A DNA stretch of 64,000 bases from Gemmatimonadota bacterium (lineage in GTDB: Bacteria; Gemmatimonadota; Gemmatimonadetes; Longimicrobiales; Gaopeijiaceae), in NCBI GenBank assembly GCA_022826005.1, contig JAJDVT010000027.1:1-64000 (forward strand), given 5' to 3'. Of the stretch, positions 18,278 through 20,207 are shown piece after piece. The translations under genes and the position numbers were made by a program. The first letter of the stretch is position 1, and the number at the start of each line of letters is the position of its first letter. Under the pieces are notes generated by a model. That model was not told the DNA's origin. It made no database searches and saw only the letters and a program-made list of their open reading frames with translations.

Positions 18278-18442
18278 GAGCTATTCGTCCGAAGGGCAAC
18301 GAAGAGCGGAGCCTTGGGGATGCGATATGTAAGGAGAACACGACAATGTGTAAAGCAGACACTACAGTGGGAGCCAGGTCGGCAAAGCGTCCAACGCGGA
18401 TGCATCGTGGTTCGAATGCCGCGGGGGTTTTGTCCACGGGCT
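18278..18442. repeat. 165-nt dispersed repeat, copy 2
   Basis: This partner of the repeat at 3344-3508 has the same length and the same conserved ends (GCAACGAAGAGCGGAGCC and TTTTGTCCACGGGCTG). The middle is diverged. It sits between the divergent msrA and ammonia-lyase genes, about 90 nt from the msrA start and 20 nt before the proposed start of the lyase gene. It could therefore carry or disturb their promoters. Confidence 0.7.
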
Positions 18443-18462
18443 GCTGGACATTGAACAGGGAT

Positions 18463-19748: not shown

Positions 19749-20207
19749 ATGAGCGACCCCTTCTACACCGCCCGCGCCAGCGTGGCCAAGGTGGACGGCA
19801 TCCACCGCCGCGCCACCCTCGAAGACGGCACGGAAATCGACTTCGGCGTTCACGGCCCGATCAAGTCGTACTTCCGCCTGGACGCCGAGCCGGACCGCCC
19901 CCTCCCCGTCGACTACCTTGTCGCGGCCGCCGCCGGCTGACTACTCGGGACCCTCAACGGCGCACTGGAGGTGCGCGGGATCCCGATGGCAAACGACGCG
20001 ATCACCGTCACGGCGGAAGGCACCAACGAGGTGGTGGACCGGGTCGTCACCCTGACCAGGATTCATGTCCACTACACGATCAGGCTGCCCAAGGGGGCAC
20101 CGCGCGACAAGGTGGACCGGGCGCTGGAGACCCATGTGGCCAAGTGTCCTACGGCCGCCAGTCTCAAGGGAGCGGTGGAGGTGACCTGGTCGGCGGATGT
20201 GACGTAG
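19749..20207 (+). CDS. OsmC-family protein, candidate selenoprotein (TGA = Sec64)
   Basis: Read through TGA 19938-19940, this is one 152-residue OsmC/Ohr-type peroxide reductase. Before the TGA comes FGVHGPIKSYFRLD, then PVDYLVAAAAG. After it, in the same frame with no other stop for 88 codons, come LLGTLNGALEVRG, IHVHYTI and HVAKCPTAASL. OsmC proteins have their peroxidatic cysteine in AAxxxC followed by LxxT, and the TGA falls on exactly that residue; C133 is the partner cysteine. OsmC-like selenoproteins have been reported from marine metagenomes. A SECIS-like hairpin directly follows. The alternative is a TGC-to-TGA nonsense mutation. ATG 19749 has no strong Shine-Dalgarno sequence. The gene ends about 160 nt before the BlaI-type gene. 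Confidence 0.75.
19946..19985 (+). promoter_or_regulatory. Candidate bacterial SECIS element
   Basis: The element starts 5 nt after the in-frame TGA. CGGGA (19946-19950) pairs with TCCCG (19981-19985). CCC (19951-19953) pairs with GGG (19977-19979). After a 6-nt bulge, GCGCAC (19960-19965) pairs with GTGCGC (19971-19976), closing a 5-nt loop, UGGAG. The loop begins 25 nt after the TGA and has G at its second position. This fits the published bacterial SECIS rule of a small G-containing apical loop 16-37 nt downstream. Such hairpins recruit SelB with Sec-tRNA. Confidence 0.65.

Follow-up and report, generated by a model that had tools for sequence, protein, structure and literature searches.

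A probable selenocysteine codon at the active-site position of an OsmC-family protein in Gemmatimonadota

Does an in-frame TGA codon within an OsmC-family gene of a Gemmatimonadota bacterium end translation, or is it read as selenocysteine (Sec)? The gene lies in a stretch of 64,000 nucleotides (the window; C69 among the contigs of a genome of 4.85 Mb), for which the initial annotation, made from the sequence alone, had proposed a selenoprotein with a SECIS-like hairpin directly downstream of the TGA. Among named organisms, MAGs of Gemmatimonadetes/Gemmatimonadota and of Longimicrobiales come nearest to this genome. Taken together, our data make it very probable that the product of the gene is a selenoprotein with the OsmC/Ohr fold, in which UGA 64 is recoded by SelB and the hairpin and for which the family suggests the reaction and substrate.

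Reading frame, fold and active-site position

The two halves of the gene do lie in one frame around a single TGA at residue 64, and with this codon read as Sec the frame continues to its TAG stop (table 1). The Pfam domain OsmC (PF02566) spans the TGA, covering residues 49-147 with 58.7 bits against a gathering cut-off of 27.5, and an AlphaFold model with 27 orthologues as input (pLDDT 95.8) has the OsmC/Ohr fold, with OsmC/Ohr proteins being its top Foldseek matches as well as its highest-Z VIA-align matches. In the alignment with the Thermus thermophilus OsmC protein 1ukk, residue 64 falls on the peroxidatic Cys and Cys133 on the second Cys, and distant OsmC homologues of the phylum carry Cys in the column of residue 64. 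Sec64 and Cys133 are both invariant, i.e. the protein has the two redox residues of the OsmC/Ohr superfamily. Family membership, the partner cysteine and the position of the TGA at the active-site cysteine, all of which had been claimed initially, are thus confirmed by the domain match and the alignments.

Table 1. Coordinates of the gene, its two putative redox residues and the hairpin in the window.
Feature	Position	Strand	Remarks
OsmC-family gene, very probably encoding a selenoprotein	19749..20207	+	152 aa with TGA as Sec; TAG stop
UGA codon, Sec64, peroxidatic-cysteine position	19938..19940	+	aligned to the active-site Cys of 1ukk; TGA in 101/101 distinct homologues
Cys133 codon, KCPTA motif, partner cysteine	20145..20147	+	invariant in a 27-row alignment; CP in 101/101 distinct proteins
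Bacterial SECIS core hairpin	19960..19976	+	6-bp stem GCGCAC/GUGCGC; loop UGGAG at 19966-19970; 25 nt after UGA
Longer stem flanking the SECIS core	19946..19985	+	strong fold in the window, mainly same genus

The hairpin and the selenocysteine machinery

Bacterial SECIS (bSECIS) elements are described by a loop of 3-9 nt with a G within loop positions 1-2, an upper stem of 4-16 bp, a distance of 16-37 nt from the UGA and an MFE of at most -7.5 (PMC13188914). With its 5-nt loop UGGAG, 6-bp stem, spacing of 25 nt and folding energy of -9.7 kcal/mol (z -3.5), the core hairpin of the window lies inside all of these limits, just as had been anticipated for its loop and spacing. The longer stem-loop of the initial annotation is also real, folding in the window at about -22 to -25 kcal/mol, but it is the core that is conserved: the full 40-nt stem is stable mainly within the genus, and other genera keep the 17-nt tip only.

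All six core pairs are kept in 79 of 79 distinct orthologues (group A) and in 20 of the 21 genes of a second group (B), paralogous to the first, i.e. in 99 of 100 genes. The null model, synonymous recoding at family codon usage in 1000 trials, left on average 7.2 of 100 hairpins intact (maximum 16), or 6.4 of 79 (maximum 15) for group A alone. Paired positions undergo double changes: among 73 aligned sequences, pair 27/35 reads A-U 43 times and G-C 28 times, while pair 26/36 reads C-G 69 times and U-A 3 times. At the codon level, ALEVR is usually encoded as GCA.CTG.GAG.GTG.CGC, ALEAR as GCG.CTG.GAG.GCG.CGC and VLEAR as GTG.CTG.GAG.GCA.CGC; the codon of one residue tracks the identity of another residue, and selection therefore acts on RNA pairing. 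The folding z-score of the 57 nt 3' of the TGA against synonymous recoding (mean -0.7 for A, +0.1 for B) is near the null, since conservation does not extend to the outer stem; this leaves the six core pairs as the informative test. A SECIS covariance model gave convincing matches in this genome at the A and B genes only. Among its weaker matches, one on contig C62 sits at the apparent end of a fumarase gene, and for the others with a hairpin no Sec frame was seen.

A genome lacking Sec machinery had been named as something that would speak against a selenoprotein. The genome of the window contains selA (414 bits), selB (297 bits over cut-off, with the C-terminal, SECIS-binding winged-helix domains SelB-wing_2 and SelB-wing_3), tRNA-Sec (77.9 bits, anticodon TCA (UCA)) and selD (377 bits, with one TGA of its own). 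Selenocysteine is used widely among these Gemmatimonadota, with SelA in 105 of the 148 genomes examined, and the TGA-containing OsmC gene is distributed along with SelA: 79 genomes have both, 3 the OsmC gene alone, 26 SelA alone and 40 neither (Fisher test, 4e-15). SelA thus accompanies the gene in 79 of 82 cases, and two of the three genomes in which it was not detected are under 90% complete. Where SelA is missing, the gene is almost always absent, not replaced by a Cys version.

Since other kinds of UGA recoding occur in nature, a variant tRNA might also decode the codon as Cys or Trp, or programmed readthrough might pass it without SelB. We consider this very improbable, because the site is exactly the catalytic Cys column, all four components of the Sec machinery are encoded in the genome, the hairpin conforms to the bSECIS rules and is under selection, and the gene tracks SelA. 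Recoding of UGA 64 by SelB and a SECIS element is strongly supported by these genomic data.

Conservation of the TGA across the class

Re-translation of the DNA of 80 distinct group A orthologues and 21 distinct group B paralogues gave one U per protein, and none of these relatives has Cys at the Sec64 column; the UxxGT motif and the downstream Cys-Pro are present in all 101. In the set of 148 genomes, each full-length orthologue and each group B member has a single stop, which is TGA, and when 395 genomes of the whole phylum were searched with a profile, a single TGA stood in every one of the matches listed. Cys forms in other phyla were searched for by scanning contigs with exact 8-residue patterns, and a search of plasmids found no homologue. 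The genome of the window has one A gene, that of the window itself, and one B gene (C51:59136-59585; L098), which is 33% identical to it and has the same SECIS core. In a tree of the phylum's OsmC proteins, the long branches of which render deeper joins uncertain, A and B join each other separately from Cys-type OsmC (support 99/87). The initial annotation would have been called into question by close relatives with TGC and an unconserved hairpin; what the alignment of homologues reveals is TGA in all A and B relatives, with the hairpin kept, and Cys in the distant OsmC proteins of the phylum. The TGA is almost certainly read as Sec at the active site, here and in all relatives found across the Gemmatimonadota.

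When a draft MAG shows one in-frame stop within a gene, this frequently stems from a sequencing error or marks a pseudogene, yet the identical TGA, with no further stop, occurs in more than 100 independently assembled genomes across the class, and pN/pS is still low 3' of the TGA (0.25, compared to 0.17 upstream), pointing to purifying selection on both sides, so that error or gene decay is extremely unlikely. Equally negligible is the chance of two products, i.e. a 63-aa protein ending at the TGA and a second one starting at GTG 19971, where an ORF of 78 aa indeed exists, since 31 of 100 relatives have GCG, GCA or GCC in place of this GTG, the stretch from TGA to GTG is conserved as protein and a single helix (residues 53-75) in the AlphaFold model is continuous across residue 64.

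Most selenoprotein families are chiefly families of cysteine proteins with few Sec members. The branch described here looks Sec-only throughout the class, and many genomes, that of the window among them, have two copies; it thus offers a clean case for the role of selenium. Sec-OsmC genes also run the risk of being annotated as broken or truncated.

In one MAG with the label Deltaproteobacteria, two contigs (L068 and L069) have a Sec-OsmC gene each, 85% identical to that of the window; this MAG is probably a mixed or mislabelled bin. In another assembly (G211), an OsmC gene is apparently divided at the TGA between contigs C145 and C53 (L208, L207).

Potential chemistry, known relatives and gene neighbourhood

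In the mechanism that we propose, SelB would bring Sec-tRNA(Sec) to UGA 64, directed by the hairpin 25 nt downstream, and Sec would be put in where the peroxidatic cysteine would otherwise stand. By analogy with the family, Sec64 would then most probably attack a peroxide or other oxidised substrate to yield a selenenic acid, which Cys133 would resolve as an Se-S bond that a thiol system would subsequently reduce. Such peroxidase chemistry, with an attacking Sec64 and a resolving Cys133, is what the family would predict. In Ohr/OsmC enzymes the NPEE motif contains a catalytic Glu that directly follows its Pro. In the alignment this column is occupied by Val54, where 1ukk has Glu, and therefore classical Ohr chemistry may not apply and the substrate may differ.

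OsmC-like selenoproteins are indeed known from marine metagenomes, as the initial annotation had stated, with three UXXT sequences from the Sargasso Sea in 2005 (PMC1088965), a further report from GOS in 2008 (PMC2398784) and one entry with the motif UxxT in a 2026 catalogue (PMC13188914). Like the protein of the window, the marine one (COG1765 / PF02566) has Sec where the peroxidatic Cys would be, with a bacterial SECIS a short way 3' in its gene, but its motif is UxxT and not the U-x-x-G-T of all 101 proteins here; moreover, the marine set comprises few sequences and has Cys homologues, whereas no relative found for the A/B clade is a Cys form. NCBIfam NF041052 (OsmC_like_Se) is likewise OsmC-related and named a (seleno)protein, but the protein of the window scores 33.4 bits against its cut-off of 95, the B paralogue of this genome gave no match at E 0.001 and the cut-off was exceeded in none of 119 genomes of the class. 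The Cys-type OsmC/Ohr reductases (E. coli OsmC 1nye/1qwi, T. thermophilus 1ukk) share the fold, with a VIA Z of about 14, and can be aligned to it at both redox positions; the protein of the window differs from them in having Sec at the first of these positions, in Val54 compared to the Glu of 1ukk, and in belonging to a clade of its own in the tree of the phylum's OsmC proteins.

In the open literature, our search turned up no study of selenocysteine use in Gemmatimonadota OsmC proteins. While the kind is already known, the A/B branch, apparently Sec-only and consisting of two paralogous groups, appears to be uncatalogued. A bolder reading, which we regard as rather doubtful, is that of an obligately selenium-dependent, class-wide and never Cys-containing branch, whose active site, being unlike that of hydroperoxide reductases, would suggest a selenium-only reaction.

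Two OsmC-like genes in other genomes (G140:C118:3470-3847 and G123:C87:461616-461987) match NF041052 at 38-45 bits and have one internal TGA each; they could possibly represent a third Sec-OsmC group.

MsrA and bacilliredoxin genes do lie near the gene, but the functional fit that had been seen in this finds little backing, as neighbours mostly differ in the other genera inspected. Among 14 loci, the order channel-MsrA-PLP enzyme is common to the genus and one other genus; elsewhere the neighbours differ, and no functional inference is therefore drawn from the neighbourhood. Upstream of MsrA, at 18396-18446, the window contains a repeat of roughly 40-60 bp that is dispersed in the genome: related copies occur at five further sites, one of them beside selD.
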